Assembly: GCA_950054485.1 (NCBI GenBank)
Contig: CATLPD010000003.1
Location: forward strand, 1 to 64,000
From: an uncultured Alphaproteobacteria bacterium
GTDB taxonomy: Bacteria > Pseudomonadota > Alphaproteobacteria > Micavibrionales > CSBR16-224
Reading direction: 5' to 3'
DNA length: 64,000 bases
Below, in pieces: positions 5,339 to 56,373 of this stretch. A program made the translations under genes and the position numbers. The notes below the pieces were generated by a model. The model saw only the letters and a program-made list of their open reading frames with translations, was not told where the DNA came from and did not search any database. The stretch's first letter is position 1. The number at the start of each line of letters is the position of its first letter.

Positions 5339-5357
5339 TATTATTTTTACTTTTATA

Positions 5358-5870: not shown

Positions 5871-7361
5871 TTAAGCGGCTTTCTTTTGCGCCATTTCTGG
5901 CATGGCGGTAAAGTTTGCGGCCTTTTCCATGACCTTTGCAACATTCATCACCGTGCCTTCGTCAAAGGGGCGGCCGATCAACTGCAGACCCAGCGGCAGG
6001 CCATTTGCATCAAGCCCTGCAGGGATCGACATACCCGGCAATCCGGCAAGGTTTGTTGTCACAGTAAAGACATCGTTCAGATACATCGCGATCTGATCAT
6101 CCGATTTCTCGCCAACGCCGAATGCGGCAGACGGCGCAGTCGGGGTCAGGATGACATTGACATCTTTGTACGCATTATCAAAGTCCTGCCAGATCAGCTT
6201 GCGCAATTTACGTGCCTTATTGTAATAGGCATCATAGAAGCCAGCTGATAAAACGTATGTTCCGATCATGATGCGGCGTTTCACCTCGTCACCGAAACCG
6301 GCGGCGCGGGTGGCTTCATACATATCGATCAAGTTGCCGCCTTCGGGCGCGACACGCAGACCGTAACGCACGCCGTCATAGCGCGCAAGGTTTGATGATG
6401 CCTCTGCAGGTGCAATAATATAATAAGCAGGCAGCGCATATTTCGTATGCGGCAGGGAAATATCAACAATTTCGGCACCCGCATCTTTCAGCCACGCGAT
6501 ACCATCATCCCACAGCTTGCTGATTTCATCAGAGATGCCATCGATACGGTATTCTTTCGGGATCCCGACCTTCATGCCGCGGATGTCACCTGTCAAAAGG
6601 CTGCGGTAATCGGGAACTTCACAATTCACCGATGTTGAATCTTTCGCATCATATCCTGCCATTGCCTGTAGCATAACGGCGCAATCTTCAACCGTACGCG
6701 CCATTGGACCGGCCTGATCGAGGGATGAGGCAAAGGCAACAATGCCCCAGCGTGAACAACGGCCATATGTCGGCTTGATCCCGCAAATTCCTGTAAAGGC
6801 TGCAGGCTGGCGGATGGAACCGCCCGTATCTGTACCAGTTGCGCCCATTGCGATGCGGGCTGCAACCGCGGCAGATGATCCGCCTGATGATCCGCCCGGG
6901 ACCAGAACCGTGTCATCACCTTTGCGCTTCCACGGGTTTTGAACGCCGCCAAAACCGCTGGTCTCATTCGAGGAGCCCATCGCGAATTCGTCAAGGTTGA
7001 GTTTACCCAGCATCACCATGCCTTCATCCAGCATGTTTTTGGATACGGTTGATTCATATTCGGGTTTAAAGCCTTCCAGAATTTTACTGGCGGCGGTTGT
7101 TTGAACACCTGCCGTGCAGTACAGATCTTTCATCCCCATCGGAATGCCTTCGATAACGCCGACGTCGCCACCAGATCGGCGCGCATCACTGGCACGCGCC
7201 TGATCAAGCGCAAGTTCAGGTGTTTCAACGATATAGGCATTTAAGTGGCGGTTTTGTTCCATCGCCTGAATATGGGCCTCGGTCAATTCAACCGATGTAA
7301 TCTCTTTTTTCTTCAGGCTGTCTAGGGCCTCGGTAATGGTCAGGTTTGTCAGATCGCTCAT
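5871..7361 (-). CDS. gatA: Asp/Glu-tRNA(Asn/Gln) amidotransferase subunit A
   Basis: A 496-residue amidase-signature protein of normal GatA length. The Ser-cisSer-Lys triad is visible: Lys in [11 protein letters not shown], cis-Ser in [11 protein letters not shown], and the nucleophile Ser in [12 protein letters not shown]. It hydrolyses glutamine and delivers ammonia to GatB through the complex. An in-place GGAG ribosome site precedes the ATG. It lies five bases after gatC, so they form one operon. The ADP-like C-terminal end is complete ([16 protein letters not shown]), so the gene is intact. Confidence 0.97.
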
Positions 7362-37589: not shown

Positions 37590-39164
37590 TTGACAGGAAT
37601 AATGAGTTCGACATTACGCGCGAGCCTGATCAGCTTGCAGAATTCGACAGTGCTATTCGATCAAAGCTCGGTTCGGTTAGGAACGGGGCGGAAGGTCAAT
37701 AGCGCACTTGATGATTCCCGTTCTTTCTTCGCCGCCCAAGGCCTCTCCAATACAGCAAGTGACCTCGGACTTCTGTTGAATAACATCGGGCAGAGCATCT
37801 CCACTATAAAAGCAGCACAAAACGGATTAGACGGCATCAGTACACTTCTTGAGATGGCCGAAACCCTGACACAGCAGGCGCTGGACGAACGGGCTTTCGT
37901 ACCATCGCAAAGCATCCGCGCACAAATTCTTGATGCTAATCCTGCTTTATATCTTCCGCTTGATGAAACATCCGGCGGCTCAGCGGTTAACCTTGGCTCT
38001 GGTGGTGCGGCCTTAAACTCAAATTACCAGGGTGGGGTGACATTAGGGGCAGACCCGCTTTATACATTCGGCAGTACCAATTCGGCCTATTTCGACGGAA
38101 ATAATGACCGTATAAGCGTACCGAATAGTGCATTGATCAATACAGGTAACGTTCCTGAGAGAACCGTCGAGCTGGTCTTTACGGCGGATGACGTCAATTC
38201 CCGCCAAATTCTTTGGGAGGAGGGTGGCGGCACCAACTCGCTCAGCATTTATATTGATAATGGACGCGTATATGCAAATACAAGAGATGCCGGAGATTTC
38301 GGTCCCTTTAATATCAGTGAGGACATTCAGGCCGGTGAAACATATCATGTCGCGGCGGTCTTCAGTGACTCGCAGGGCGAATTTCGTGGATACCTGAATG
38401 GTGAGCTTATGGGCACAGGCAGTGTCAATAGGCCATTGTCGCCACATACGGGCGCTATTGGTATTGGTTGGATGAATAATGCGACCTATTTCCACGATGG
38501 GCCGGCCGGCGGAAACGGATTTTATTTTAACGGCCGTATTTCGGATGTCGCCTTGTATAATACGGCCCTTGACCAAACCGAGCTGGAAGCGCATTCGAAT
38601 GCGGTTCAGGTTACAGATTCCGATATAACTCTATATAATGATTATCAGGCCTTGTTGCAGCAAATTGATGAACTTGTGCTTGATGCAGGATATCGCGGGA
38701 TTAATCTTTTAAACTCAGATACGCTGAAAACAAATTTCAACAAAGACGGATCATCTTCACAAAATGTGCAGGGGGCTGATACGTCATCGCGCGGCCTGTA
38801 TCTGGATACCACAACCTATGAAAACGAGTCCGATACCGAAGCAACACTGGCCGCAATACGCAGCGCCAAAGACCAAATCAGAATCCTGTCTTCACAAATG
38901 TCCAATAAAATCGGTGTATTGAACAATCGCAACGATTTCATCAGTGAAATCATAAATAACAACCTTGAAGGTGCAGATAAGTTAACGCTTGCGGATGTAA
39001 ATGAAGAAAGCGCGAATAGCATTGCCTCGCGAACTCAACAGCAAATCGCTAATTCAATGATGGGGGTTGCAGCAAGATCCCATGTTGCCGTGTTGGGGGT
39101 CTTCTCGTTGGGGGATCGTTTTACGGCAAATTCAGCGGGCAACGGCCTTTTCGGTAGTTTTTAA
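37590..39164 (+). CDS. Flagellin-like protein with an inserted LamG/concanavalin-type domain
   Basis: A 524-residue protein. Residues 5-105 match the flagellin D0/D1 N-terminal helices (QSSVRLGTGRKVNSALDD, LLLNNIGQSISTIKAAQNGLDG). Residues about 115-340 read as a laminin-G-like jelly roll: ALYLPLDETSGG, YFDGNNDRISVPNSALINTG, RTVELVFTADD, WHDG-like loops and FNGRISDVALYNTALDQTELEAH. Residues ~345-524 return to flagellin (IDELVLDAGYRGINLLNSDTL and the C-terminal IRILSSQMSNKIGVLNNRNDFI). The insertion would be displayed on the filament surface. The start is TTG 37590 with a GAGGA site, or ATG 37602. No export or hook genes are nearby. Confidence 0.82.
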   Translation: MTGIMSSTLRASLISLQNSTVLFDQSSVRLGTGRKVNSALDDSRSFFAAQGLSNTASDLGLLLNNIGQSISTIKAAQNGLDGISTLLEMAETLTQQALDERAFVPSQSIRAQILDANPALYLPLDETSGGSAVNLGSGGAALNSNYQGGVTLGADPLYTFGSTNSAYFDGNNDRISVPNSALINTGNVPERTVELVFTADDVNSRQILWEEGGGTNSLSIYIDNGRVYANTRDAGDFGPFNISEDIQAGETYHVAAVFSDSQGEFRGYLNGELMGTGSVNRPLSPHTGAIGIGWMNNATYFHDGPAGGNGFYFNGRISDVALYNTALDQTELEAHSNAVQVTDSDITLYNDYQALLQQIDELVLDAGYRGINLLNSDTLKTNFNKDGSSSQNVQGADTSSRGLYLDTTTYENESDTEATLAAIRSAKDQIRILSSQMSNKIGVLNNRNDFISEIINNNLEGADKLTLADVNEESANSIASRTQQQIANSMMGVAARSHVAVLGVFSLGDRFTANSAGNGLFGSF

Positions 39165-39214: not shown

Positions 39215-41710
39215 ATGGAGCGTTTTCACAAATTTACGTCCAAAATCAGTACCCGCATCGTGCTTAGTTTCTGCGGTATTATTGCTGTTTCGCTGCTTAT
39301 TTCTATCATTTTCCTGCACTTTCAAAATATTGCTGTTTTCTCGCAGGAAGAACTGGTTGAAATGGCATCCCACTCCAATCAGCAGGGCCAGAAAGCATCA
39401 GCCCAAAGTTTAAGAGAAGTTACATTAGAGGCCACAAAATATTACACGGGCCTGGTTTTTATGTGCGTCGTCATCGCATTTGGGATCGTGTTTCTATATG
39501 TCGAACCTAAAATCCTACGGCGCCTTGTCGCCCTTTCAAAAAATATTGAACAGCTATCAAGCGGCAGGTTAGAACAGGAGATCAACGCGGAGGGCCGCGA
39601 TGAAATATCCGAAATGATGCATTCGCTCGAGGCTTTCAGGCTTAAATTGCTTGAAAAACAAAAATCCGAAGAAGAATTGCTGGAAATGCGCGACCGTCTG
39701 GAAGAAAACGAAAAACGCTATCTTTTAACGACACGTGCGGCGCGGATTGGCTTATGGGATTGGAACCCGATTACGAACGAAACTTTCTTTAATGATGAGT
39801 GGTATACAATGCTGGGTTATTTTCCGGGTGAATTGCCGGCAACTTTCGAGACTTTTGAAAACCTCTGCCATCCGGATGATTTTAAAAAATGCACGCAGGC
39901 TATCAGTGAACATTTTGATACGGGCCGTGATTATAAAATCAGTTTTCGTATGCAGCATAAAAATGGTAACTGGATTTGGGTTTTATCAAACGGAAAAGTA
40001 ACAAACTGGGATGGGGATGGGCGCCCACAGCGCATGTCGGGTGTACACACTGACATTACAGAACGTAAAAAAGCGAATGACGAACTGCAGCGCATGAAAA
40101 GAAGCCTTGAGGTAGAGATTGAAAGCCGGACAATCGAGTATAAAGAACAAAAACTTATCGCTGAACGCGCCAATAAGGCAAAAGATGAGTTTCTGGCAAA
40201 TATGAGCCATGAATTGCGTACTCCGCTGAATAGTATATTGGGTCTGACCAACATCCTGATCGATAACCAGAAAGTTTCAAACGATATCAGAAAAGACCTG
40301 AAGGTAATTAAGAGTGCATCAAATTCACTTTTGGGCATTGTTAATGACGTTCTTGATATTTCAAAAATTGAAGCCGGTGCAATCGAACTTGAAGACGGGT
40401 CCTTCAATGTTGCCGAGGTTCTTTATTCTGTGTGGGCGCAATTATCGCCTTTGGCGCAGCAAAAGAAACTGGACTTCAAAAATAATTTTTCCGAATATGC
40501 ACACGTAAGTGTCATGGGCGATTCATTCCGTTTCCGGCAAATCATGGTTAATTTGATCGGCAACGCGATAAAATATACCGAGGACGGCTTGATTGACGTC
40601 AATATTGTCTTCAGGGAGCATGACGTTTCAACGCAAACAAAAAAATTCATATGCGAAATAAAAGACACCGGCATTGGTATCCCGGCAGATAAGCTTCCGA
40701 CAATCTTTGACAAATTCACACAGGCTGAGACAACGTCAAACAGGAAGTTTCAGGGAACAGGTCTGGGGCTGAATATTACGAAACTGTTGGTTGATAAAAT
40801 GGGTGGTGATATTCGTGTTCACAGCGAACTGGGTATCGGGTCAGTCTTCATTTTATCCATTCCCTTTCAGCGGGCGGAAGGGCTTGTTAACTTCGAGTCG
40901 GAAGAAAAAGATTTTTCTTTGGATTCATCACCGAAGCAGAAAAAGAACTTTAATGATGCCAGAATTTTAATTGCCGAAGATCACGATTTAAACCGCCTAT
41001 ATATGGATAAATTGATGCAGAAATTAAATTGCGGTTATTTCGCTTTTGCAGAAGATGGTGGCAAGGCTTTGTCCGCTTACAAAAAGGAAAAATGGGATCT
41101 GATTTTAATGGATTGTCACATGCCCGAAATGAATGGTTTTGAGGTGACGGAAAAGATTCGTAAACTGGAAAAGCAAAGCGGCAGTTACGTGCCAATCGTT
41201 GCGGTGACGGCGGACGCAATGGATGCAACGCGTCAATTGTGTACAGAAGCCGGTATGGATCTATATCTTAGCAAACCCATCGACGAAAGGCAGTTTGTAT
41301 CCGTTTTAAAAAATTGGTTTGAATTTGAAGAGATTGGAAATTTGTCAACCGGCGATTCTGATCTTGATCAAAACGTCATTGATTTTTCGCTTTTAAAGGA
41401 ATATTCGAATGGTGATTTTGAATTTGAACGTAAGTTGGTGCAGTCCTTTTATCATACGGGTAGTTTGGATATTAATATTCTTAAAGAGAATACGGATCCG
41501 GAAAATCACGATATTTTTACCGAGGCTGCCCATAAGCTGAAAGGAAGCAGCGCTTTTATCGGTGCAAACCAATTGTCTGCCTTGTGCCAGAAGGCCCAGA
41601 TAATTGACAAAAAAATGTCGAGCGAAAACCGAAAGAAAATATTTGCAGAAATTGAAAAAGAGTTTTCAAATGTAGAGGGTTATTTGAAAGCACAGGATTA
41701 TCTGGAGTAA
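39215..41710 (+). CDS. Hybrid histidine kinase: TM-HAMP-PAS-HisKA-HATPase-REC-Hpt
   Basis: An 831-residue membrane sensor. Two TM helices (about 15-36 and 77-95) flank a short periplasmic loop. A HAMP-like region, a PAS domain with PAC (about 165-285, ending RMSGVHTDITERKKA), HisKA with SHELRTPLNS and HATPase with DTGIGIPADK and GTGLGLNITK follow. Next come a receiver with its Asp in LILMDCHMPEMNG and an Hpt with EAAHKLKGSSAF. It carries a full phosphorelay in one chain. The 41715 regulator follows four bases after the stop and is the likely output. Confidence 0.92.
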   Translation: MERFHKFTSKISTRIVLSFCGIIAVSLLISIIFLHFQNIAVFSQEELVEMASHSNQQGQKASAQSLREVTLEATKYYTGLVFMCVVIAFGIVFLYVEPKILRRLVALSKNIEQLSSGRLEQEINAEGRDEISEMMHSLEAFRLKLLEKQKSEEELLEMRDRLEENEKRYLLTTRAARIGLWDWNPITNETFFNDEWYTMLGYFPGELPATFETFENLCHPDDFKKCTQAISEHFDTGRDYKISFRMQHKNGNWIWVLSNGKVTNWDGDGRPQRMSGVHTDITERKKANDELQRMKRSLEVEIESRTIEYKEQKLIAERANKAKDEFLANMSHELRTPLNSILGLTNILIDNQKVSNDIRKDLKVIKSASNSLLGIVNDVLDISKIEAGAIELEDGSFNVAEVLYSVWAQLSPLAQQKKLDFKNNFSEYAHVSVMGDSFRFRQIMVNLIGNAIKYTEDGLIDVNIVFREHDVSTQTKKFICEIKDTGIGIPADKLPTIFDKFTQAETTSNRKFQGTGLGLNITKLLVDKMGGDIRVHSELGIGSVFILSIPFQRAEGLVNFESEEKDFSLDSSPKQKKNFNDARILIAEDHDLNRLYMDKLMQKLNCGYFAFAEDGGKALSAYKKEKWDLILMDCHMPEMNGFEVTEKIRKLEKQSGSYVPIVAVTADAMDATRQLCTEAGMDLYLSKPIDERQFVSVLKNWFEFEEIGNLSTGDSDLDQNVIDFSLLKEYSNGDFEFERKLVQSFYHTGSLDINILKENTDPENHDIFTEAAHKLKGSSAFIGANQLSALCQKAQIIDKKMSSENRKKIFAEIEKEFSNVEGYLKAQDYLE

Positions 41711-41714
41711 ACAG

Positions 41715-42488
41715 ATGTTTATTTTTGATGTAGAACAGCGCCAGGATGCACAAGCAGTTTTTCAAACCATAGAGGCCGGTTTGCGCGATTGGGAGATGAT
41801 GTCTTTTAGAATGTATCGCCGTGATGCGGATATGCTTCAAAAGCTTGCAGACCATCTACTTGCAAAATATCAAAAAGATTCAGGTATGATTGTAAAAATA
41901 TCTGATTATAAAATTGTCTGTTTTATGCGTACATTCGGTGGACAAAATCACGCTGCGGCTATACGCAGGATTGAGAAAGATCTGGGCGGATATGAGGCCC
42001 AGTTATCATCAGAACGGATCACAATCGACAAGCTGAAGAAGTTTTCCGAACTGCACCTTAGGCAGAGCGCGCCGCATGAAAACGAAATGTATCTGGAGCG
42101 CATGCAGCGTGATGCCAATAAGGTTTTAATTATTGATGATGACCTTTTTGTTCGCAAGGTTATAAAATCGGGTTTTGCACCCTATGCAGAGGTTCTGGAT
42201 TTTGACGAGAGTCCCGATATATTGGACAACATAAAGGCCTTTAATCCGGACATCATATTTATCGATATTCACATGCCCGGGCGTAATGGATTTGAAATTA
42301 CAGAAACAGTTATAGATTTTGATCCGGATGCTTACATCATTCTTGGCAGTTCCGATGCTAGCGTTGATAATGTTTTGAAAACTCTGGCCTTTGGCGCAAG
42401 CGGTTTTCTTGCAAAACCAATACGCAAAAATAAACTATTGGAACATGCAAAACGCTGTATTACTTTTAAAATCGAATATGATATCTGA
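41715..42488 (+). CDS. Response regulator with unknown N-terminal domain and C-terminal REC
   Basis: A 257-residue protein. Residues 1-125 form an unrecognised domain, then a receiver starts at KVLIIDDDLFVRK. Its phospho-acceptor Asp is in IIFIDIHMPGRNG, with the Ser of GSSDAS and the Lys in FLAKPIRK. Receivers are usually N-terminal, so this order is unusual. GGAG lies before the ATG, four bases after the upstream hybrid kinase, so they form one operon and probably one pathway. The N-terminal part has no DNA-binding motif I can see. Its stop directly abuts that of the convergent kinase gene. Confidence 0.85.
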   Translation: MFIFDVEQRQDAQAVFQTIEAGLRDWEMMSFRMYRRDADMLQKLADHLLAKYQKDSGMIVKISDYKIVCFMRTFGGQNHAAAIRRIEKDLGGYEAQLSSERITIDKLKKFSELHLRQSAPHENEMYLERMQRDANKVLIIDDDLFVRKVIKSGFAPYAEVLDFDESPDILDNIKAFNPDIIFIDIHMPGRNGFEITETVIDFDPDAYIILGSSDASVDNVLKTLAFGASGFLAKPIRKNKLLEHAKRCITFKIEYDI

Positions 42489-44453
42489 TTAAATGTAGCG
42501 GCTGAGCGTGATATAGAGCTCCTGTTCTTTCACGGGTTTGGATAGATAGTCATCCATGCCGACTTTCAGACATTTTTCTTTCTCGCCGGCCATTGCATTT
42601 GCGGTCATCGCCACAATTTTCTGACGCGGCAGGTTATCATTCTTTTCACAATTTCTGATTTTTTCTGTGGCTTCGAACCCGTCCATTACGGGCATCATAC
42701 AATCCATCAAAATAAGATCGTAATCGGATTTTGCTTTGATTTTATCGACCGCGATTTGCCCGTTTTCTGCGACATCAACAGTACATCCTAAGCCCTCCAG
42801 CATGTCGGTTGCAACGATTTGATTGATGGTTTCATTTTCAACCAGCAGGACATGTGCTTTTAATGGCATCATACTAGACTTCTGATTTTTAGGCGGCGCG
42901 CTCACTTCTTTTTTATACAGGTTGTAAATCAGCTTTCCGATATCTGACGTATTAATAGGTTTATAGATGTGCGCATCATAGGCATTCATATTGAAATTTC
43001 CCGTTTTTGCGGGCAATGATCCCAATTTGGCGATCAATACCATATGCGCTTGTTGATATTCGGGTGTGGCACGCAGGTTTTCTATATATTTTACACCGTT
43101 TTCGCTGTGCAGTTCGTTATCGACCAGCAGCATATTATATGGTTTACCGTTTTTAATCGCCGCATTTAACGTGTCGATCGCACCCTGACTGTTTGAGGTG
43201 CTGTAATCAACTTCCAATTTATCCATTACAGATTTTGTATATTCGCAGCTGACTTCAATATCATCAATTATCAGGATACGCAGGTCGTCGCACCCCTGAA
43301 GTTTTTTAATGATCTCGGAATGGTCGCTATTTTTCATGATGGGGCATGTAATTTCAAACCAGAATGTTGTACCGACGCCAACTTCACTTTCAAGGCCGAT
43401 ATAGCCGCCCATCATTTCGACAAGCTTGCGCGTAATAGCAAGGCCCAGCCCCGTACCGCCGTATTGTTTCGTTGTCGAGGAATCAACCTGTGCAAATTTA
43501 TCAAAAACGGTATCGATTTTATCGCGCGGAATGCCGATGCCCGTATCCTGAACGCTTACACGCATGGTTATGTCGGTTTCTGTTTTGTGTTTTTCTTCGA
43601 TGTGAAGTGCGATAAGACCTTTATCAACAAATTTTACGGCATTCCCGACAAGGTTGACCAGAATCTGGTTCAGACGAATAGGGTCGATATGGATGGCAGC
43701 AGGCAGGTCGCCTGAATATTGTACCGTAATTTCAATGTTTTTCTCGCGTGCTTTGGGCAGGAAAGAGCTTTGGACGCGGTCAAAAAACTCGCGGAGGTCA
43801 ATCGTCTCGGGCGCTATTTTAAGCTCGCCGGCTTCAATTTTTGAAAGGTCCAGAATGTCATTAATCAGAACCAAAAGGGTATCGCCCGAATATTGTACAA
43901 TATCCAGATATTTTAACTGTTCGGGTGACATGTTTGTTTTTTTCAATAGTTCAACGGCGCCGATAATGCCGTTCAAAGGCGTGCGGATTTCATGGCTCAT
44001 GTTGGCCAGAAATTCAGACTTTAATCGATTAGCCTGACGGATCGACTGGTTGATTTTGTGGCGCTGAATGGCATATTTTATCGCATTGGGAACGTCATGT
44101 TTTTGCAATTTGCTTTTTACGATGTAATCCTGAACGCCTTCTTCCAGCGCCTGCAAAGATACACGGTCGTTTTCGTCACCGGTTAAAACGATCAAAGGCA
44201 ATTCCGTATGTTCGATCAGCTTTTTATATGTTTCCGGCCCGTGCGAATCCGGCAGACTAAGGTCTGATAAAATGATGTCGAAGCTCCCTTTTTCTAGGGT
44301 CTCCAAAGCTGCGTCCATATGCGTTTCCCATACAATGTTGTATAGGTCGCGGGCATCCGATTTCAGGTCCTCCATCAGGATGTAGGCATCACTGTCGTCA
44401 TCCTCGATAAGTAATACGGATATGGTTGTTTTTGTTATATTTATGCCATCCAT
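42489..44453 (-). CDS. Soluble hybrid kinase: REC-HisKA-HATPase-REC-REC
   Basis: A 654-residue protein without membrane segments. The N-terminal receiver is [15 protein letters not shown] with Asp in [12 protein letters not shown]. HisKA has [12 protein letters not shown] and HATPase has [10 protein letters not shown] and [11 protein letters not shown]. The middle receiver (~395-510) looks degenerate ([23 protein letters not shown]). The last receiver has [13 protein letters not shown] and [10 protein letters not shown]. It is the last of five leftward signalling genes, 16 bases after the Rcp1-like regulator, so it probably takes phosphate from the kinases upstream. Confidence 0.9.
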
Positions 44454-44469
44454 ATTGGTCTCTTTTTTT

Positions 44470-44895
44470 TTATTTTCTCCTTGGCAGTTTGGCTGTATTG
44501 GCCCAGAAGCGGTGTGTGTCGATTATAATTTTTGTAAAGTCTTCCAAATCAACAGGCTTGGTGATATAGCAATTTGCATTTTTGTTATAGCAGGCTTCTA
44601 TGTCCTGTGCTGAATCGGATGTGGTTAAAATAATCACGGGAATGGAGCGAAGGTTATCCTGACTTTTCAGCCAGTCCAGAAACTCATGACCGGTCATGCG
44701 CGGCATGTTTAAATCGAGTAGAATAAAATCGGGTTTTGGGGCGGATTCGTAAGGGGCCTCGTTTTGCAGAAAAGAAACGGCATCAAGACCGTCGTGTGTG
44801 ATGTGAAGTGTAAGTGGTAGGTCAGCCCCCTCCAGCGCCTCTTTCGCCATCAGCGTATCGCCGGCGTCATCGTCCACCATCAAGACGTTAATCAT
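44470..44895 (-). CDS. Rcp1-like single-domain response regulator
   Basis: A 141-residue receiver-only protein. It begins [22 protein letters not shown] and has the phospho-Asp in [18 protein letters not shown], Thr in IILTTSD and Lys in [12 protein letters not shown]. The [11 protein letters not shown] style and length are those of Rcp1, the regulators paired with phytochrome-type kinases. It lies between kinases of that HisKA type (45001 and 46384) and the soluble hybrid kinase, so it is likely to be phosphorylated by them. No output domain is present. Confidence 0.9.
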
Positions 44896-45000
44896 ACAAG
44901 AGCCCCATGTCTGTATTCAGTTCGCACATTTCTCTATTTAATATTATACACTGAAATCCTTTACAAAATATATCCTATACGAAAGTATTAAGCTAAATGA

Positions 45001-46371
45001 TCAGGTTGTTGGGACTGTAAAAAAGAAGGAGCTGCCGTCTCCGGGGGTGGATGTCACCCAAATATGCCCGCCATGAAATTCGACAATTCTGCGCGCGACA
45101 CTCAGGCCCGCCCCGATACCGGGGATTTCCTCTTTTCTATGAAGGCGCTGAAACATTGTAAACACCTTATCCAGATGGTTTTCGGCGATCCCAATTCCGT
45201 TGTCCCTGACTTCGAAACGGTAAAAATCTTCCTCCTTAGTGGCGAGTATCTCGATCTTCGGGGTGTCTTCGCCACTGTACCGAACCGCATTGTTGATCAG
45301 AATTTCGAACAGCTGCGTTAGCAATGCGGGGTTATAAAAAAGTATGGGGAGATCATTATAAAGGATATCGCCCCCTGATTCGCTAATAAGCGATTTTTGA
45401 CGTTCCATAGCAAGCTTTACGGCGTCATCAGCCGAAATGTCTCTCATGTCATTCTTGTGCGTAGATAAAACCGTCGCGTATGCTTGTAATCCATCGACCA
45501 GATCACGCATTTGCGCTGCCCCCGCGATAATAAAATCAAGGCAGGTTTCTACATCTTTCTTATTTTTGGCGGGTATGTTTTCAGACAATTTTTGTGAAAA
45601 GCTTGTTATTTTCCTGAGAGGTTCACGTAAATTATGCGACGCAATATAGGTGAAATGCTCCAATTCCTTGTTCTGCTGTTTGATGATGTTTTGACGTTCT
45701 TCCAGCTCTTGAACGTATTCGCGGATACGATTGACCAATGGACGGAAAAGAAGCAAGGCTTCAAGCAGCAGCACCAAAGTGGTGAGAAGCAGGAACACCC
45801 CTTGTATTTTCAGTGTCTCTTGTGTTTTCTTGCGGGCCGCCTGTTCATGCAAGACAACGACGGTGTTAAGGTCATTCAAAAGCGCGTTCGGCCCCTCCTG
45901 CAATATATATCGCAAACTTTCGCTGTTGGCGTTTTGCAGGGTGATTTGACGTGCATTGTTAATATAGGCTTTGACCCTGCGATCAAGCTGTTTCGGGTCA
46001 TCGAAATAAACGGCTTGTATCTCCGGATTGTTCAATCGCGGGATATTCAACGATGTGTTGCCGTCTATCAAGGCCATGTGATTGCGCTCAAACTCATTAA
46101 CTGTATCCGTCAGGTCAGATGCCGTTGAAAGACGCGCCTGATCGGATTTGTTTTGCATGTTCTCGAGGCTGAAAAGGGCAATGCGCTGACTTAACATGCG
46201 CTGTCGACCGCTAATGTTGATCACTGATGCGTCATCTTCTTGCTGTTGAATCAGTTGGGCCATGAAAAAATACTTAAAGCAAGCCACCGTGAAAATCAGC
46301 GCCAAAGCCAGGATATACGCCCGTTTCAGGTTCAGGGCGTCTTTATCGGCATTTGTATTTATATTTTTCAC
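45001..46371 (-). CDS. Membrane histidine kinase with PilJ/NarX-type sensor region
   Basis: A 456-residue kinase. TM1 (about 15-35) is followed by an IINISGRQRMLSQRIAL-like motif (VINISGRQRMLSQRIAL), characteristic of the PilJ/NarX N-terminal four-helix sensor. TM2 lies near 185-210. HisKA has the variant FTYIASHNLREPLRKI and HATPase has DNGIGIAENH and GIGAGLSVAR. The HisKA type is that of phytochrome-like and Rcp1-paired kinases. It closely resembles the C-terminal half of the 46384 kinase and is 12 bases after it, so they probably arose by duplication. Confidence 0.88.
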   Translation of the reverse strand: MKNINTNADKDALNLKRAYILALALIFTVACFKYFFMAQLIQQQEDDASVINISGRQRMLSQRIALFSLENMQNKSDQARLSTASDLTDTVNEFERNHMALIDGNTSLNIPRLNNPEIQAVYFDDPKQLDRRVKAYINNARQITLQNANSESLRYILQEGPNALLNDLNTVVVLHEQAARKKTQETLKIQGVFLLLTTLVLLLEALLLFRPLVNRIREYVQELEERQNIIKQQNKELEHFTYIASHNLREPLRKITSFSQKLSENIPAKNKKDVETCLDFIIAGAAQMRDLVDGLQAYATVLSTHKNDMRDISADDAVKLAMERQKSLISESGGDILYNDLPILFYNPALLTQLFEILINNAVRYSGEDTPKIEILATKEEDFYRFEVRDNGIGIAENHLDKVFTMFQRLHRKEEIPGIGAGLSVARRIVEFHGGHIWVTSTPGDGSSFFFTVPTT

Positions 46372-46383
46372 GGGCTTTACCCT

Positions 46384-48723
46384 TTATTTCACGACCGTAA
46401 AGTAAAAGGTCGATCCGATATCCGGTGTTGATGTGAGATAGATACGCCCGCCATAACGTTCAACAATTTTCTGACAAAGGGATAGACCGATACCTGTTCC
46501 GGGGATGTCCTCTTTGCGGTGCAAGCGCTGGAACATGGTGAAGATCCGGTCAAAATATTTTTCCTCCATGCCCATACCGTTATCTTTAACGGCGAATTCC
46601 CAGACTTCGCCCTTATCAGTGGCTGAAATCTCGATCATGGGGTCTCTGTCGCTTTTGTATTTCATGGCGTTCCCGATAAGGTTTTGGAACAACTGGGTCA
46701 GCATGATCTTGTCATAGGATACAACCGGCAAATCCTGAAACTGAACTGTAGCCTTCGTATCTTTTACACGCTCGCTGAGGTTATCGACCGCCAAAGCAAC
46801 AATTTCATTCGCATCCAGCTTTTCGACTTTGACGTCTTCGGTCGTGATGCGGGAATAGGCCAACAAGCCCTGAATCAGATTCCGCATACGCTCGACACCA
46901 TCCAGAATGAAATTCATATAGACCTGCGTTTGTTCATCAAGATCATCGCCGATTTTCTGATTGAGACGATCTGTAAACCCACCGATTTTCCTGAGGGGTT
47001 CTTGCAGGTCATGAGATGCGATATAGGCAAACCGCTCAAGCTCCTTGTTCGAGCGGATAAGTTCCTGGTTGGTCTGTTCCAGAATTTTTCTGTTTTTCCG
47101 CACTTCACGGGTTTGTTTTTCGACTTCTTTGGCAATGGTTTCACGGCTGTGCATGATGCGGCTGAAGGCAAAATAGACCAATATAGAAAAGAGTAGGCCG
47201 AATATCGCCAAAAGGGTCGGCGCATTGTCATCAATGGATGCAACCATTTTACTTGTAGAGGCCCATGCGATCGTCCAGGTTTGACCGGCAATTGACAGGG
47301 TTGACTGAAGCATATAGTCAGCTGTTTCCGTATATTTGGGCGAGCTGTAAATAATATTCTTTTCATCTGTTCCCTTGCCGTCAAAAACAGCAAAAGAAAG
47401 ACGCTCGTTACTGACATTTGTCAGGTCGGTCATAAAATTCGAGCCCATAAAGGGGGCGTAGACCCAACCCAGAATTTGCTCGCGTCTTTCCTGTTCGTTT
47501 TGCGGCGTGTTTTTACCTTCGTATACGGGGATAAGTAATAAAAATCCCGGCTGTTTTTTGTTGTCCTGCACCAGCTGAATTTTTTTTGTCAGTGATGCCT
47601 GACCTGTATCGCGCGCACGTTCTGCCGCCGCACGCCGGTTTGCTTCAAAGCCGATATCAAGTCCGACAGCCTCCTTATTGCGGAATACGGGTTCGATATA
47701 ATTGATGATAAATTTATCGTCAAAATCCGTTTCAGGGTGGTTTTTAAATTCCGGCGCATCATCAGCGCGCGTTTGTTGTAAGTAGCTATCGAGATTTTCT
47801 TCGGTAACGTAGTCGATATACCCGATCCCATTGATACCGGGTAAATTTTCGTCGACGCGCAAGGCTTTTACAAAGTCATGCCATTCGCCGCGTTCTACCG
47901 ATTGGGAGGCGTAAAAAAGAGCAAGCCCGCTTCTGAGGCTTTGCTCGTATAGTGTATATCTTTCCAACAGCGCATCGTTTGTTTCCTCGGTTAGGGTTTT
48001 GAACTGCATATTGATGCGGGCTTCGCGGGCCTCTTCCATGTTGTGCCAAAAGAAAAAAGTCATAACAAAGACCAGGGTGGCAAGGGTAAAAGGTGTCATG
48101 CTCCACATATCAAAGCGACTGTTGGGCGCGTTCACATAGGCGCCTGCCAGCATACCGGTCCCCACCAGTGAAAAGCCGATTGCCGTGTGAATGGCCATGC
48201 GCGTCAGGTTCCCCCAGCCATAGAGGTTTTCAGTGTGAAAGATATAGCCGATCAAGGATAAAAAGCTGAATAAAAGCACAACGACAGCAAACCCTATAAA
48301 AACATGACGGTTAAAAGGCCGCAGAATAAAAGCAAGGCCGGTCAGGGTAAAGCATATGGCTGTATTAGGTGCCATGCGCCCCGGGTGGGACGTTTTTGTT
48401 GTGATCGTATGATCAGTGAAAATATGGTCAATGTGAAGATCAATGTGAAAGACATATTGCAAAAGACTTGAAAAACCGATGAAGGCCACAATAACGCCTG
48501 CCACCTGCGAGCAGTCGCGACGGCCTTTATAGACGCAGATCAATGCAAGCCCCGAAAACAAAAAGGCCAGTGCGGTGTTGAACTGCATCGGAGCAAAAGA
48601 TTTATGAATCTGAACCAGAATCTGATTTTCTGTCTGCCAGCCGGCCATCACGGTTATGGCCAGCACAATGCAAAGCAGCCCATTTATCAAAATAAGATTA
48701 TTCCAGCGTGTTCTATTCATCAA
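46384..48723 (-). CDS. Membrane histidine kinase with multi-TM and CHASE domains
   Basis: A 779-residue kinase. The N-terminus has seven or eight hydrophobic segments in a MASE-like unit (to about residue 230). A periplasmic CHASE domain follows (~255-495, with GINGIGYIDYV and EPVFRNKEAVGLDIGFEANRR), flanked by TM near 500-520. HisKA has FAYIASHDLQEPLRKI and HATPase has DNGMGMEEKYF and GTGIGLSLCQK. CHASE domains bind small ligands; the ligand here is unknown. It is the first gene of the five-gene leftward signalling run. Confidence 0.9.
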   Translation of the reverse strand: MMNRTRWNNLILINGLLCIVLAITVMAGWQTENQILVQIHKSFAPMQFNTALAFLFSGLALICVYKGRRDCSQVAGVIVAFIGFSSLLQYVFHIDLHIDHIFTDHTITTKTSHPGRMAPNTAICFTLTGLAFILRPFNRHVFIGFAVVVLLFSFLSLIGYIFHTENLYGWGNLTRMAIHTAIGFSLVGTGMLAGAYVNAPNSRFDMWSMTPFTLATLVFVMTFFFWHNMEEAREARINMQFKTLTEETNDALLERYTLYEQSLRSGLALFYASQSVERGEWHDFVKALRVDENLPGINGIGYIDYVTEENLDSYLQQTRADDAPEFKNHPETDFDDKFIINYIEPVFRNKEAVGLDIGFEANRRAAAERARDTGQASLTKKIQLVQDNKKQPGFLLLIPVYEGKNTPQNEQERREQILGWVYAPFMGSNFMTDLTNVSNERLSFAVFDGKGTDEKNIIYSSPKYTETADYMLQSTLSIAGQTWTIAWASTSKMVASIDDNAPTLLAIFGLLFSILVYFAFSRIMHSRETIAKEVEKQTREVRKNRKILEQTNQELIRSNKELERFAYIASHDLQEPLRKIGGFTDRLNQKIGDDLDEQTQVYMNFILDGVERMRNLIQGLLAYSRITTEDVKVEKLDANEIVALAVDNLSERVKDTKATVQFQDLPVVSYDKIMLTQLFQNLIGNAMKYKSDRDPMIEISATDKGEVWEFAVKDNGMGMEEKYFDRIFTMFQRLHRKEDIPGTGIGLSLCQKIVERYGGRIYLTSTPDIGSTFYFTVVK

Positions 48724-50274: not shown

Positions 50275-50826
50275 ATGAAAATTCAAAACAAAAGTCGAAT
50301 AGTTGCCGTTTTTTTTGCATGCCTTTTAGCGCTACCCCAGATAGTACTTGGTTTGCCGAGCGTTATTCTAAGCAATAACGTCGACATGGATTTTGGTCTT
50401 ATTGAATACTCTGGTGCGGGAAATGCGTCTGTCGGAACAGACGGAAATGTATCTTATTCTGGTGGTTTTACCGGGGCGGGGCTTGGTACATCCGGTGCAA
50501 CGCTTGTGAGTTTAACCAATTCTACCCAGGCAACTATTGCTTGCAGTGCGACGGCTACAATGACAAACTCCACGGGCGATACTTTAATGGTTTCCGACAT
50601 TGAATTTGTCGTGGGGTCGGCAAGTCGCACAAGTTTTGGGAGTGGGACGCCTTGCCAGGGCATCGGAACATCTTCCGGAACTTTTACCTTTTCAGGCACT
50701 GTAAATAATCGTACTATATACGTTGGGGGTCGTATCAATGCGGCAGGTCCTCTGTCGGGTGCGGGTAACTATTCGAGTGCAAATGCCGGTGGCTCAAGTA
50801 TAACTATTGTAGTCACAGCAATCTAA
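50275..50826 (+). CDS. DUF4402 pilin-like subunit, first copy
   Basis: A 183-residue secreted protein. The signal peptide is near residues 1-26, with a basic start KIQNKSRIVAVFFACLLALP. The body has the DUF4402 pattern: a DMDFGLIEYSG strand near residue 40, a Gly/Ser/Thr-rich middle and the Cys pair in IACSATATM and GTPCQGIG. It ends in a beta strand, SSITIVVTA. It resembles the pilin at 55125 and is probably a minor or adaptor subunit. It starts the locus that continues with the chaperone 17 bases on. Confidence 0.85.
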   Translation: MKIQNKSRIVAVFFACLLALPQIVLGLPSVILSNNVDMDFGLIEYSGAGNASVGTDGNVSYSGGFTGAGLGTSGATLVSLTNSTQATIACSATATMTNSTGDTLMVSDIEFVVGSASRTSFGSGTPCQGIGTSSGTFTFSGTVNNRTIYVGGRINAAGPLSGAGNYSSANAGGSSITIVVTAI

Positions 50827-50843
50827 GTCTTGGGAAATTCATA

Positions 50844-51698
50844 ATGCACAAGTTAAAATACAGTTTTATATTCTTTATGGCTCTGGCGGTTTTTGCTGTC
50901 GCGGGCTTTTCAAACCTTATGGCGCAGGATCAGGGAAGCATCCTCTATGTTTCGCCCAGCCGGGTTGTTATTGACCCGTCCGAGAAAATTCAGACTTTGA
51001 CAGTCAGTAATCGTTCGAATGTGGAACGCCGCTATGATATTTCTGTAATTGATCAAACAATGACTGAACAGGGTATCACCCAGCGCGTTGATACTTTCGA
51101 TTATTCGGCCAAACGCATGCTACGTTTCGTACCAAAGCGTTTCACCCTAAAGCCGGGCGAGCGCCAGATTATCCGTGTTATGGTTCGCCGTCCGGGCGAT
51201 CTGACAGATGGTGATTATCATAGTCATATGCTGTTCCGTGAAATTCCGGTCCAAAATAAATCACCTGACCAATTACTGACTGGAAATCAGAACAGCGGCA
51301 AAGCCAGCTTTGAAATTAAAACCCTGTACGGTTTGGCTGTTCCGGTTGTTGTTCAGCAGGGTACAATTCAGGCTGATATGCAGATGGTTGATGCGCAGAT
51401 TTTGAAAAACCCTTCGGGTCCTGTTCTGGCAATTTCTATGCAACGTCAGGGAAATGCCGAAGCTGCACGTTACGTGACAGCAGATCGTATTGGCGCCGAT
51501 GGCCAAAGACAGCCTTTGATGCCCGGTCAATGGGTGCGTATGTACCGCGAGGTTTCACAAGTCAGCAAGATGATTGAAATGAATGCACCGGCTGCCGCTT
51601 CTCTGAGAGCGGGCGATCGAATAGAAGTCCGCGTTTCACAGGCCGTAGAAGGCCAGCCGGAACTGAAAGTTTTACAAAATAAAAACCTGACATACTAA
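50844..51698 (+). CDS. Periplasmic fimbrial chaperone, PapD-like
   Basis: A 284-residue protein. The signal peptide covers about residues 1-27, ending SNLMAQ. The first Ig-like domain has LYVSPSRVVIDPSEKIQTLTVSN, then MLRFVPKRFTLKPGERQIIRVM, the strand used to bind subunits, with HSHMLFREIP. A second domain follows. The chaperone holds fimbrial subunits in the periplasm and passes them to the usher. The sequence is of the alternative class rather than classical PapD. A terminator follows the gene, so the usher has its own promoter. Confidence 0.87.
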   Translation: MHKLKYSFIFFMALAVFAVAGFSNLMAQDQGSILYVSPSRVVIDPSEKIQTLTVSNRSNVERRYDISVIDQTMTEQGITQRVDTFDYSAKRMLRFVPKRFTLKPGERQIIRVMVRRPGDLTDGDYHSHMLFREIPVQNKSPDQLLTGNQNSGKASFEIKTLYGLAVPVVVQQGTIQADMQMVDAQILKNPSGPVLAISMQRQGNAEAARYVTADRIGADGQRQPLMPGQWVRMYREVSQVSKMIEMNAPAAASLRAGDRIEVRVSQAVEGQPELKVLQNKNLTY

Positions 51699-51718
51699 AA
51701 TATTAGCAAAACTCTTTA

Positions 51719-51749
51719 AAACCGCCGTATTTTTGCGGCGGTTTATTTG
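51719..51749 (+). terminator. Rho-independent terminator after the chaperone gene
   Basis: AAACCGCCG pairs with CGGCGGTTT around an 8-base loop with a short T-run. It separates the pilin-chaperone pair from the usher. Confidence 0.85.
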
Positions 51750-51769
51750 TATTTAAGGTTATGCATTCT

Positions 51770-51798
51770 TTGCTAATCCCCCGTAAATAACGTATAAT
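51770..51798 (+). promoter_or_regulatory. Promoter for the usher gene
   Basis: TTGCTA at 51770-51775 and TATAAT at 51793-51798 are separated by 17 bases. Initiation near 51805 would give a leader of about 30 bases before the TTG at 51834. Confidence 0.65.
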
Positions 51799-51833
51799 CT
51801 TGGGAAGAAGAACCTTGAGAGTGTGAACACATC

Positions 51834-54800
51834 TTGCGTCCTTTATCTTTGTGCACCAAGTGGCGTTCTGCCACGAATACGGTGCCATCAGTATTGTATT
51901 TTGCTATTGGGCTTTTGATCGCGGTGACGGTCTGGGCGCATGCAGGATTTCTACATTCAAAATCTGGACATATTACAAGCACATCGTCGTATCAATTTTC
52001 TGCTGTCAGCGTGGGGCAATATGCGCAAATGGGGATGGATCTTGGGACGATTGAAAACAGCGACGAGGCCAATCAACCCGCTGAGGATGAATTTGATGAA
52101 AATGCTGCCTATGAGGCCGCCTTTGCCGAGGAGTACGAGGAAGATGAAGATCTGGAGGATCTGCAGATTTTTGTGCCCGAAGATAACGCGGTGGTGCAGG
52201 GGGCATCGGACAATGTTGTGACTGACACAACCGCCCCGGATGAAGTCGAGTACGTCGAGCGTCCCGAAGAACAGCTTTTGATCGTCGAGGTGGTTGTCGA
52301 CGAAGACAGTATTCTTGATGCCGGAATTATCATTTATGTTGATGATGAAAGCCGTCTATGGCTGCCGCTGGGCGTTTTGACCGAATTGATGCAATTCCCT
52401 ATTGATGTTAATCCCGGCACCGGCGAGGCAAACGGCTGGTTCATCGCCGAAGAAAACAGTTTCGTATTGAAGCCGCCTTATCGACAAATGACCTATAAAG
52501 GCGAGCAAATTGAAATTGTCACCGGTAGTGTTGAAAACCATTTCGATGATATCTTTGTCAGTGAAGCGTTTTTCGAAAATGTTTTTCCTGTTACCGCCGA
52601 TCTCAGCTTTAATGATCTAAGGCTGTATCTTGAAGCCGAAGAAGACCTACCGTTTCAGGTTCTGGCCAAGCGTCGCGCAAAATGGCAGCAGGCATCGCGC
52701 CAGAGTAACCAGCCCGGCCGATACCTGGAAGGCGACATCATTCGTCTGCCCTATCGTAAATATTCATTTCCCAGTGTGCAGGTTACCCACAGCCTAAATG
52801 CGCTCAGCATGTCGGGGGCCTTTCAAAATAATTCAACAACAAGTGTGCAAAGCCAAGGTGATTTTCTGGGTATGAACCTGCGCGTGAATGGCAGCTTTAC
52901 AACCAACTCCGAAACTTTTAACGAATTTAGCAGCTTGAATGTAACGTTCGAAAAAGAAGACTATCAATCGAAAATGCTGGGACCGCTTCAGGCCAGCCAG
53001 TTCGAACTGGGGGATGTCAGCGGTAATGGTCTGACGCTGGCAAATAATTTTCAGCGCGGACGCGGCTTTGCCGTGACCAACGCCCCGTTGAATTTTGTAC
53101 GCAGCCCGAACGACTTTACGGTCGAAGGCTTTGGCCCCGTAGATTGGGATGTAGAAGTTTATCAGGACGGGCGTTTACTGGAATTTGACACGATTGATGC
53201 GGATGGCCGCTATGAATTCGATGCCTTGCCCCTGCGCCGCGGTTTTAACCAGTTCCAGATTGTCCTTTATGGGCCGAACGGGGAGCGGGAGGAGCGCTAC
53301 GAGCGTTTTTATCTGGGCCAGAATATGGTCGATAAGGGCGAATTTATTTATGATGTTACATTGCTGGAATCCTCGACCCCCCTGATTGACCCGCGCCGCG
53401 ACCCCACGGACAAGACGTCGGGCACTGTTTCATTCCAGGGGGATTACGGCATTTCGGAAAACTTTTCTGTGAACGGCGGGTTTTACCAGGGCCCAATCGG
53501 CAGCACCATGATCCGCGGTGCCGGTGCGGGTGTCCGCGGAACTGTTGGCAGTACATATGCCCAGTTCAATATGTTCCAGACAGACGACAGTGCAAGATCT
53601 TTTAATTTTGAGGCCACCGGTAATATTACCAAGGACCTATACTGGAACGCGGGTCAGGTCATTCATAACGGATACGAGCCGGGCGTTCGAACCACCGAAC
53701 GCGATACATTTGCCAGTTTATCCAAACAGTTTTCGCTGAAACTGATCCCGCAGGGTAACATCAGTTTTGGTGTGCGGGATCAAAAGTTTGACTCGGGACA
53801 GACCACGCGAACCTACAGCAACACCCTTTCGGGGCAGATATTCGAAACAAACTTTACGAACGATATTGAATATGAAGTTCAGGAAAATGCCGATCCGCAG
53901 ATAACAGGTAGTCTAACAGCGCGCCGTCGTATTCCGCTTGGGAATTTCAGGGCTAGATTGAATTATGGTCTTAAAAATCCAGCAGAATTCACCAGCGCCG
54001 ATTTACAATTGCAAAGCCGCTTGAATGACCGTTTTACATTTAACGGTCTTCTCAGCAGTAACTTTATAGGTGATCGCGAAACAACCCTTCAGGCCGGTAT
54101 TGATGTTAAGTTCGACAAATTCCGTCTGGGGGTATCGGGTTCTGCCTCGACCGAGGAAAACTACCGCGCCGGTCTGACGTTATCTTATAACTTCATTCCG
54201 CAATCCCTACAGGGCAACTATAAAATGACGGGGGATACCAGTGATCTGAATACAGGGGTGCTTTTGGTGCGCCCATATCTGGATGAAAACCAGAACGATA
54301 TGTATGACGACGGCGAAAAGGTTATTGAAGGCCTTGAATTCCGAAACCTTTTATCGGGTAAGCGCGGAACCGTTGATGAAAGCGGAGTTGCAACTCTACA
54401 AGGTTTGACGCCGGCTGTTGTAAACCGCGTCAGGGTTGAACCGGAAAGTTATCCTGATATTTATCTGGTTGCAGATAAGGAAGAAGTTAACGTCTATGGT
54501 AAACGCGGTATTGGCGGGCCAATAGATTTTGCCCTGAATAAGCTGGGTGAAATCAGCGGCAGTATATATGTAAGTGATCCTGCTACGGGCGGAATGGAGG
54601 GGCTAGCCGGTGTAGTCCTCTATCTGCTGGATGAAAACGGCGATGTCTATCAGGAAAGCTATTCGGAATTTGACGGCTTTTATTCTTTCACATCTGTTCC
54701 TGTCGGCACGTACCGTATTTATTTCCCAAAATCGCAAGCCCTGGTTCAGGTGACAGGCGGGCGAACAATGACAAGCGAGCCTTTCCAGCTAAGTTATGAT

Positions 54801-55019
54801 GCTATTGAAATTTTTGACGGTGATTTCGAGGTTTCGCCAATGGGCATAGAGCCGCTGGGTGATACCATTACAGGCGATATGCTGATATCCGGCACAAATG
54901 GCGGGGGGTCTAATGCGCAGAGTGCCATGGTATTGGCGCAAAAACCGGCGTTTCAGCCGCGCGCACCCCTGATAAATGGCTTTTATTCCCTTATTTTTTC
55001 AAGGGTTGAGTCAAATTAA
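51834..55019 (+). CDS. Outer-membrane usher with C-terminal carboxypeptidase-like/CNA-B-type domain
   Basis: A 1061-residue usher. After a basic start and a hydrophobic signal (VLYFAIGLLIAVTVWAHA) comes an acidic linker (EEYEEDEDLEDL near residue 95-105). The N-terminal usher domain has an ESRLWLPLGVLTELM segment. The barrel region spans about 300-830 (FGPVDWDVEVYQDGRLLEFD, YGPNGEREERYERFYLGQ). Residues ~830-1060 hold regulatory-like repeats: GRLEISGSIYV-like strands and DENGDVYQESYSEFDGFYSF. It translocates subunits in the alternative chaperone-usher class. The first start is a TTG; GTG codons downstream could also serve, so the first ~20 residues are uncertain. Confidence 0.85.
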   Translation: MRPLSLCTKWRSATNTVPSVLYFAIGLLIAVTVWAHAGFLHSKSGHITSTSSYQFSAVSVGQYAQMGMDLGTIENSDEANQPAEDEFDENAAYEAAFAEEYEEDEDLEDLQIFVPEDNAVVQGASDNVVTDTTAPDEVEYVERPEEQLLIVEVVVDEDSILDAGIIIYVDDESRLWLPLGVLTELMQFPIDVNPGTGEANGWFIAEENSFVLKPPYRQMTYKGEQIEIVTGSVENHFDDIFVSEAFFENVFPVTADLSFNDLRLYLEAEEDLPFQVLAKRRAKWQQASRQSNQPGRYLEGDIIRLPYRKYSFPSVQVTHSLNALSMSGAFQNNSTTSVQSQGDFLGMNLRVNGSFTTNSETFNEFSSLNVTFEKEDYQSKMLGPLQASQFELGDVSGNGLTLANNFQRGRGFAVTNAPLNFVRSPNDFTVEGFGPVDWDVEVYQDGRLLEFDTIDADGRYEFDALPLRRGFNQFQIVLYGPNGEREERYERFYLGQNMVDKGEFIYDVTLLESSTPLIDPRRDPTDKTSGTVSFQGDYGISENFSVNGGFYQGPIGSTMIRGAGAGVRGTVGSTYAQFNMFQTDDSARSFNFEATGNITKDLYWNAGQVIHNGYEPGVRTTERDTFASLSKQFSLKLIPQGNISFGVRDQKFDSGQTTRTYSNTLSGQIFETNFTNDIEYEVQENADPQITGSLTARRRIPLGNFRARLNYGLKNPAEFTSADLQLQSRLNDRFTFNGLLSSNFIGDRETTLQAGIDVKFDKFRLGVSGSASTEENYRAGLTLSYNFIPQSLQGNYKMTGDTSDLNTGVLLVRPYLDENQNDMYDDGEKVIEGLEFRNLLSGKRGTVDESGVATLQGLTPAVVNRVRVEPESYPDIYLVADKEEVNVYGKRGIGGPIDFALNKLGEISGSIYVSDPATGGMEGLAGVVLYLLDENGDVYQESYSEFDGFYSFTSVPVGTYRIYFPKSQALVQVTGGRTMTSEPFQLSYDAIEIFDGDFEVSPMGIEPLGDTITGDMLISGTNGGGSNAQSAMVLAQKPAFQPRAPLINGFYSLIFSRVESN

Positions 55020-55124
55020 CGTTTTTTAAACAGTTCTCATGTAGTATGAAGGTATAGGTACTATTGTACTTATTTTGGTAGGAACGGTATCAAACAAGAA
55101 ATACTATATATGAGGAGACGTTCA

Positions 55125-55712
55125 ATGAAAATTTTTAATAAAAAAACACTGGGCCTGGCCGCGATTGCGCTGGCATTGCCTATGACAGTTATGGCGGCAT
55201 CAACAACGATTGAGGCTACAGCTTCCTTTCGCGAAGCCATTACACTAGGTGGTGAAGTTGATATGGCCTTTGGACAGGTTGACTATTCGGGTACACCGGG
55301 AGCGGGTGACACTGTAACAATGGACCTTTCAGGTAACCTGACATCAGCGGGTAACTTTACAGGTGCTGCGACTGGTACTGCGGGTAGCGTTGACATTCAA
55401 ACAGGTACAGATGGCCTGACCATCGAAGTACAGTGTGATACTACAGCAACTTTGACAGATGCTGCGGGTTCCGAATCAATTCAGGTTAATAACATTTCGG
55501 TGGGTACAATTGACAACCTGGGCTCGCCATCAGCTTGCGCGGGTACAGGTAGTGCCGCGATGACATTCGCATTGTCAGCCGGAACAAATGATACCTTGAA
55601 ATTGGGTGGTGTTCTTGATGGTAACACCGCATCTGCCGGATTTGGCGGCGGTGCGTACAGCACAGCGAACACAAGTGGTGACAACATTGAAGTTGTTGTG
55701 ATTTACCAGTAA
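55125..55712 (+). CDS. DUF4402 major pilin candidate
   Basis: A 195-residue secreted subunit. The signal peptide is MKIFNKKTLGLAAIALALP to about MAA at residue 25. DUF4402 features are VDMAFGQVDYSG, a Thr/Gly-rich middle, the Cys pair in EVQCDTTAT and SACAGTGS, and a terminal IEVVVIYQ strand. It is likely to be the main shaft subunit, because it has its own upstream region and a strong ribosome site (GAGGAG) before ATG 55125, with a strong hairpin after the gene. It is a paralogue of the 50275 subunit. Confidence 0.85.
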   Translation: MKIFNKKTLGLAAIALALPMTVMAASTTIEATASFREAITLGGEVDMAFGQVDYSGTPGAGDTVTMDLSGNLTSAGNFTGAATGTAGSVDIQTGTDGLTIEVQCDTTATLTDAAGSESIQVNNISVGTIDNLGSPSACAGTGSAAMTFALSAGTNDTLKLGGVLDGNTASAGFGGGAYSTANTSGDNIEVVVIYQ

Positions 55713-55752
55713 TCACGGAACCATTTAAAAGTTTTCTCATATAATAGTGTAT

Positions 55753-55779
55753 GGGCCCGTGCCTTCGCGGGACGGGCCC
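55753..55779 (+). terminator. GC-rich hairpin after the pilin gene
   Basis: GGGCCCGT pairs with ACGGGCCC, with an inner CC/GG pair. There is no T-run, so it may protect the pilin mRNA or partly reduce read-through into the 55807 gene rather than end transcription. Confidence 0.55.
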
Positions 55780-55806
55780 GATCTATGAAATGAAAGACGG
55801 GACACA

Positions 55807-56373
55807 ATGAATTATAAAATTTTCCACATATTACTTGCGCTGCCGCTGTTGATGACGTCCCCGTCAATGGCAAACGATTACAAGCAAGTATTAAATGAAA
55901 ATCAGATTACTTATGATTACGAAGCCGATATTCAGGCCGCTGCAAAAGTGCCATACAACGGCAATATATCTTCCGCAGTTGTCGGAGGCACGGCAAGCGG
56001 AGGTACTGTAGTCGATGTTTACGCAAAGTTCGTACCGGCGGCATCTGTAGAATTCAAACATGATGCGTTCTTTATGCCTGATTTTGATAACATAGACCTT
56101 AAAGCGCAGACCTATTTCAAAAATACAGAAGTGAAGATTAAAGGCGTCCCCGGCGAAACCGCAGTTTTAAGTTGTGAAATTCAGTACATGGAAATTGAAA
56201 CGATTAAAAGCTACACACCCGTGCAAGCGCAGGAATGCGGGCACAATCTTGTAAAACAAAAAGTTTTGGCCTCAACAGGTGACACCCTGCAAAACAATGT
56301 TGAATTAACGGATAAGGCAATTCAAACTGCAAAATACGATAGTTATGTTGCATTGGAGATAACTTATCTTTAA
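55807..56373 (+). CDS. Unknown periplasmic protein of the fimbrial locus
   Basis: A 188-residue secreted protein, not recognised. The signal peptide is MNYKIFHILLALPLLMTSP to MAND. The mature part is beta-rich, with Gly-rich SSAVVGGTASGGTVVDVYAKF and two Cys (VLSCEIQY, AQECGH) that could form a disulphide. Its position after the pilin suggests a tip, anchor or accessory subunit; this is inference. It is separated from the pilin by a hairpin and probably read from the pilin transcript. Confidence 0.6.
   Translation: MNYKIFHILLALPLLMTSPSMANDYKQVLNENQITYDYEADIQAAAKVPYNGNISSAVVGGTASGGTVVDVYAKFVPAASVEFKHDAFFMPDFDNIDLKAQTYFKNTEVKIKGVPGETAVLSCEIQYMEIETIKSYTPVQAQECGHNLVKQKVLASTGDTLQNNVELTDKAIQTAKYDSYVALEITYL

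Follow-up and report, generated by a model that had tools for sequence, protein, structure and literature searches.

The window analysed here, a stretch of 64,000 nucleotides from an uncultured member of Micavibrionales, holds at positions 37590-39164 (+) a single intact reading frame of 524 amino acids that opens with TTG; an ATG at 37602, four codons downstream, is a possible alternative start. On the whole protein, Pfam detects Flagellin_N at residues 15-101 (31.7 bits, cut-off 26.6) and Laminin_G_3 (PF13385) at residues 169-332 (57.9 bits, E 1.8e-15, cut-off 27.6), and Flagellin_C at residues 423-494 reaches 13.8 bits against a cut-off of 23. Despite this weak Flagellin_C score, the C-terminal half is most probably that of a flagellin, judging from the NCBIfam flagellin PRK12688 (141 bits overall, the best stretch pairing residues 343-503 with profile positions 585-749), from the solved structures of the Caulobacter flagellins FljL/FljK, which match residues 342-505 at E about 1e-6 in PDB, and from the AlphaFold2 helix at residues 409-504. 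The preliminary description had read flagellin N- and C-terminal helical signatures in one frame and a laminin-G/concanavalin segment inside it, and these matches agree with both readings. Overall, the gene almost certainly encodes a flagellin with a LamG insert. The Pfam scan finds no peptidase family in the protein, hence not the zinc metallopeptidase that marks flagellinolysin. A chance or frameshift artefact is ruled out by the one intact frame and by about 30 relatives. FlgL or another hook-associated protein is ruled out as well, since a separate FlgL-like gene is present in the same genome (G000:C1:263223-264185), and the window protein has no FlgL match at E <= 0.001.

Genome context of the window gene

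The source assembly has 2.28 Mb in 12 contigs and is 99.99% complete. Comparing the other flagellins of the genome, as had been proposed, we find three, two of them with LamG. Besides the window gene (P0001), these are P0002 (515 aa, contig C1), which also carries LamG and has CheB- and CheR-like genes and a hybrid kinase nearby, and the plain P0003 (392 aa), which has a Flagellin_IN insert and lies near flgE, flgD and fliK; other flagellar genes, the absence of which would have spoken against a flagellin, are thus present. The two LamG copies do not group as close sisters in the flagellin core tree. At L047:8864-10411 with 10419-11818, P0002 has the CheB-like and CheR-like genes after it, as well as the hybrid kinase, a multi-receiver one, on the opposite strand.

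The window copy itself is an orphan gene adjoining MscS and a hybrid kinase. The earlier remark that it stands away from other flagellar genes is true in the window but not in seven relatives, which have a LamG flagellin following flgE (L069, L070, L073, L075, L078, L081 and L082), with a Flagellin_IN flagellin directly downstream of it in five of the seven. The signalling cluster beside the window gene (39215-48723) includes a hybrid kinase with Hpt, a response regulator, a second hybrid kinase, a PilJ-type sensor kinase and a CHASE kinase. Farther on, positions 50275-56373 encode a DUF4402 protein, a PapD-type chaperone (50844-51698) and a 1061-aa SdrD_B-like protein, which suggests an unusual chaperone-assembled surface fibre locus. 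In addition, contig C2 of the same genome (L045, about 5232-5945) has a distant LamG near the N-terminus of a giant cadherin-like repeat protein (2026-aa frame), adjoining a membrane peptidase/HlyD-like gene.

Structure and position of the insert

All elements of the protein are on the forward strand. The flagellin N-terminal core (37602-37895) comprises an ND0 helix at residues 3-28, counted from the ATG, and an ND1a helix at residues 39-98, as given by Flagellin_N and by an AlphaFold2 model of the full protein (28 family members, mean pLDDT 85.4). It is followed by the inserted LamG/concanavalin A-like beta-sandwich (37902-38609), with the PF13385 core at about 38094-38585 and modelled strands at residues 116-319, and directly after the insert by the ND1b helix (38616-38684), where the NCBIfam flagellin match starts at residue 343; one modelled helix, residues 325-361, joins the last LamG helix to ND1b. 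Next are the D1 beta-hairpin (residues 374-390; 38721-38771) and the C-terminal core, which is the CD1-CD0 helix mentioned above (38826-39113), and finally an extra C-terminal tail of about 16 residues (39114-39161), modelled at low confidence and longer than in most relatives. From the order of elements in the model, the insert is placed at about residue 105, between ND1a and ND1b, while nothing occupies the canonical D2/D3 position behind the hairpin. The preliminary description had put the segment between the N and C helices; it does lie inside the flagellin, and its exact site is the ND1a-ND1b junction.

The jelly-roll expected for the middle part is also what is predicted, for the insert modelled alone gives a beta-sandwich with pLDDT 95.0 and pTM 0.92, which excludes a fold of another kind at the level of prediction. 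The sequence profile of the insert has matches in an S-layer protein, in the lectin domain of NanB (sialidase B) and in pentraxins, and in Foldseek the model of the insert matches ConA/LamG-like domains with probability 1.00 at 9-20% identity. The best Foldseek matches are clostridial neurotoxin receptor-binding domains (9-16% identity), which we read as a general likeness of LamG-like folds, pointing to no particular ligand, function or toxicity.

Among flagellins carrying foreign domains, the nearest precedent is flagellinolysin, a metallopeptidase-containing flagellin (Eckhard et al. 2017, PMC5595980; Hylemonella gracilis, PMC7643111). The principle is alike, that is, a functional foreign domain between conserved flagellin ends, described there as a surface-exposed and less abundant filament component. 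The domain and the insertion point differ: flagellinolysin has a protease in the central hypervariable region after ND1b (residues 163-450 in H. gracilis), whereas the window flagellin has between ND1a and ND1b a lectin-like domain that RTX proteins share. The large alphaproteobacterial flagellins PRK12688 and PRK14708 (752 and 888 aa; NCBIfam) are the best family match for the C-terminal half, and from the coordinates of the match they would have a large insert in the same position; however, the window protein is far below their curated cut-off of 614 bits, and the models are described without a LamG or lectin domain. Giant flagellins (PMC6248924) are likewise enlarged by big central inserts, but these replace D2/D3 and come from internal duplication plus a novel insert, with no lectin domain mentioned. 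In the open-access literature searched, no publication was found to describe a LamG or C-type lectin flagellin, which is not proof of absence, and the LamG flagellin is a further kind of domain-bearing flagellin alongside, for example, flagellinolysin. Since Flagellin_C falls below its cut-off, surveys in which a protein must match the two Pfam flagellin domains, such as that of PMC7018530, could overlook such proteins.

LamG flagellins and alternative inserts in Micavibrionales

A search with the LamG insert gives matches in 37 of 142 genomes of Micavibrionales, an order whose records include Micavibrio sp. UBA1850, UBA2137, UBA6147 and others. By our own count there are 33 LamG flagellins in about 26 of the 142 genomes, from three families, where a LamG flagellin is a frame of 480-545 aa with a strong LamG match and those fetched were checked for the N, LamG and C parts. 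Laminin_G_3 and Flagellin_N both match in all 28 aligned LamG flagellins, and both D0/D1 halves are retained across the family. The order-wide matches rule out a lone oddity of one genome. Outside Micavibrionales, LamG flagellins are found neither in the other alphaproteobacterial genomes sampled nor in a scan of the whole collection, except one (L058) on a record labelled Cytophagales, probably a Micavibrionales contig that was mislabelled or wrongly binned; because the scan relied on two short peptide patterns, it could have missed distant LamG types. Upstream of 30 examined genes, sigma-54-like sites are detected at seven, nearly all LamG flagellins, against an expectation of 0.35. Among them is P0002 with 10/11 matches, no such site lies upstream of the window gene, and no sigma-28 promoters are found with the pattern used.

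What the preliminary description missed is that the window gene is one of a family of flagellins in which a single site takes alternative inserts. The sampled long flagellins of the order form four clusters with inserts at the same place: LamG, Flagellin_IN, C-type lectin and a beta domain without a Pfam family. The C-type lectin flagellins score 31-49 bits for Lectin_C (Pfam cut-off 22.6), and their inserts match the asialoglycoprotein receptor, DC-SIGN and others in PDB. Judged by these sequences, the ND1a-ND1b site acts as a cassette site in Micavibrionales, taking LamG, C-type lectin, the unnamed beta domain or Flagellin_IN repeats in different flagellins. In order-wide searches LamG, C-type lectin and the unnamed beta domain each occur in flagellin-sized as well as giant frames. 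The giant frames with LamG, among those read, are mostly RTX-repeat proteins, some of them also with C-type lectin and unnamed domains, and the unnamed beta domain occurs in RTX proteins too. Four loci (L040, L041, L044 and L046) have RTX proteins combining LamG, C-type lectin and other beta domains, with LamG just before the C-terminal end in several.

In the domain tree, a single clade of flagellin LamGs apart from RTX LamGs is rejected (AU test, p 0.010), and therefore LamG has moved between flagellin and RTX contexts. In the flagellin core tree, the Flagellin_IN type forms a single clade (99), and 4 changes are needed for the four insert types. A single clade of LamG flagellins is not rejected (p 0.37) and a single clade fits equally well for the unnamed-domain flagellins, so the sister pair L063/L147 is not counted as proof of a recent swap. 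Many separate acquisitions of each insert type are unsupported, with 4 changes for four types and the LamG clade not rejected.

The median identities of the N part, the insert and the C part are 0.42, 0.43 and 0.40 in LamG flagellins and 0.52, 0.48 and 0.44 in C-type lectin flagellins, compared with 0.64, 0.27 and 0.55 in Flagellin_IN flagellins, in which insert identity is above that of the core in 0 of 324 pairs. Thus the lectin-type inserts and the flagellin core are conserved to about the same degree, whereas the inserts of the ordinary flagellins of the order are variable. Most of the residues that hardly vary among flagellin LamGs are conserved in RTX LamGs too, and the LamG core of the window copy keeps all the nearly invariant ones. 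Because the inserts are as conserved as the core and the same residues are kept in RTX LamGs, the pattern speaks for retained binding rather than for packing in the filament.

Possible role of the insert

To our knowledge, flagella are often called adhesive, but a dedicated binding domain within flagellin has seldom been identified. Here the product is best explained as a true flagellin that probably forms a minor part of the filament. Its LamG lectin-like beta-sandwich in D1, between ND1a and ND1b, would be displayed along the outside of the filament, and each filament would then carry a surface-binding module in many copies, with glycans on prey, host or biofilm as possible ligands. That the protein is a filament subunit is likely; surface or glycan binding by the LamG insert is fairly probable on comparative grounds; prey binding in particular is less likely than not. 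As a whole, we lean towards a minor filament subunit displaying a lectin-like domain for surface binding, for which we infer assembly, display, ligand and prey target. Surface display with glycan or prey binding is plausible from the conservation of the insert, the C-type lectins that relatives carry at this site and the same domains in RTX proteins. Counting against this role are four features of the window copy: its orphan locus, the lack of a sigma-54-like site, the C-terminal tail absent from most relatives and the Flagellin_C score below cut-off.

LamG folds can be structural, and the insert may be an outer domain that makes the filament thicker or stiffer or provides subunit-subunit contacts, with no external ligand. 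This is in line with the structural outer domains of many flagellins, with the thickened filaments of giant flagellins (PMC6248924) and with the Flagellin_IN repeats at the same site in flagellins beside flgE. We consider it unlikely, as the lectin-type inserts are conserved like the core and the IN inserts are hypervariable, as the conserved LamG residues are largely shared with RTX proteins, where filament packing does not exist, and as the site is used by two other domains, one of them a clear C-type lectin. Still less probable is a protein that the flagellar system exports without its being a filament subunit, namely a junction protein, a tip protein or a secreted adhesin with a flagellin-like export signal: the weak Flagellin_C score, the extra tail and the orphan gene would agree with it, but a FlgL-like gene is present separately, the NCBIfam and PDB matches are flagellins and not HAPs, and the family retains both D0/D1 halves. 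The window copy could also be little used or in decay, with its paralogue on contig C1 as the functional lectin flagellin; this reading has in its favour the sigma-54-like promoter of P0002, which the window copy lacks, and is very improbable, given the intact frame, the unimpaired LamG core and the deep divergence of the two copies, both of which were therefore retained for long.

Beyond the displayed lectin-like subunit of one genome, the Micavibrionales filament could double as a recognition organelle, with LamG, C-type lectin and the unnamed beta domain as exchangeable lectin-type cassettes at a dedicated ND1a-ND1b site, drawn from a pool shared with secreted RTX proteins, by which swimming cells would recognise prey or host with the filament; we put this forward only tentatively, at somewhat less than even odds. 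If it is true, with a whole order carrying such cassettes at one flagellin site and conserving them like the core, the motility organelle would be a recognition organelle too, and the ND1a-ND1b junction would be naturally suited to the display of folded domains on filaments.

The lineage includes epibiotic predators of bacteria. Not all Micavibrionales are predators, one member being proposed as photoheterotrophic (PMC9933672). The organism of the window is not a known predator, and we infer the link between lectin flagellin and prey; its family also differs from that of Micavibrio aeruginosavorus. In order-wide searches, none of the lectin-flagellin types (LamG, C-type lectin, unnamed domain) is found in M. 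aeruginosavorus ARL-13, a cultured predator, and therefore predation does not require lectin flagellins. ARL-13 has the C-type lectin subtype of the relatives' lectin flagellins, at 48% identity, in a 1,244-aa frame. This frame is most likely GMV2456 (1,238 aa), a hemolysin-related protein containing a lectin, for which a part in prey recognition has been discussed (PMC3189940); it shares the subtype but is an RTX type I secreted protein and not a flagellin. M. aeruginosavorus has a single sheathless polar flagellum, and its flagellar genes are highly expressed in the attack phase (PMC3189940). As the flagellum is sheathless, a displayed domain would be exposed, and the attack-phase expression fits exposure of such a domain during prey search.

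In addition, on contig C4 of the window's genome, flgE and P0003 are separated by a TPR plus Sulfotransfer_3 gene (L048:10037-11611), and similar genes adjoin flagellins in three other loci (L073, L083 and L206). The TPR-sulfotransferase might modify flagellin or flagellin glycans.
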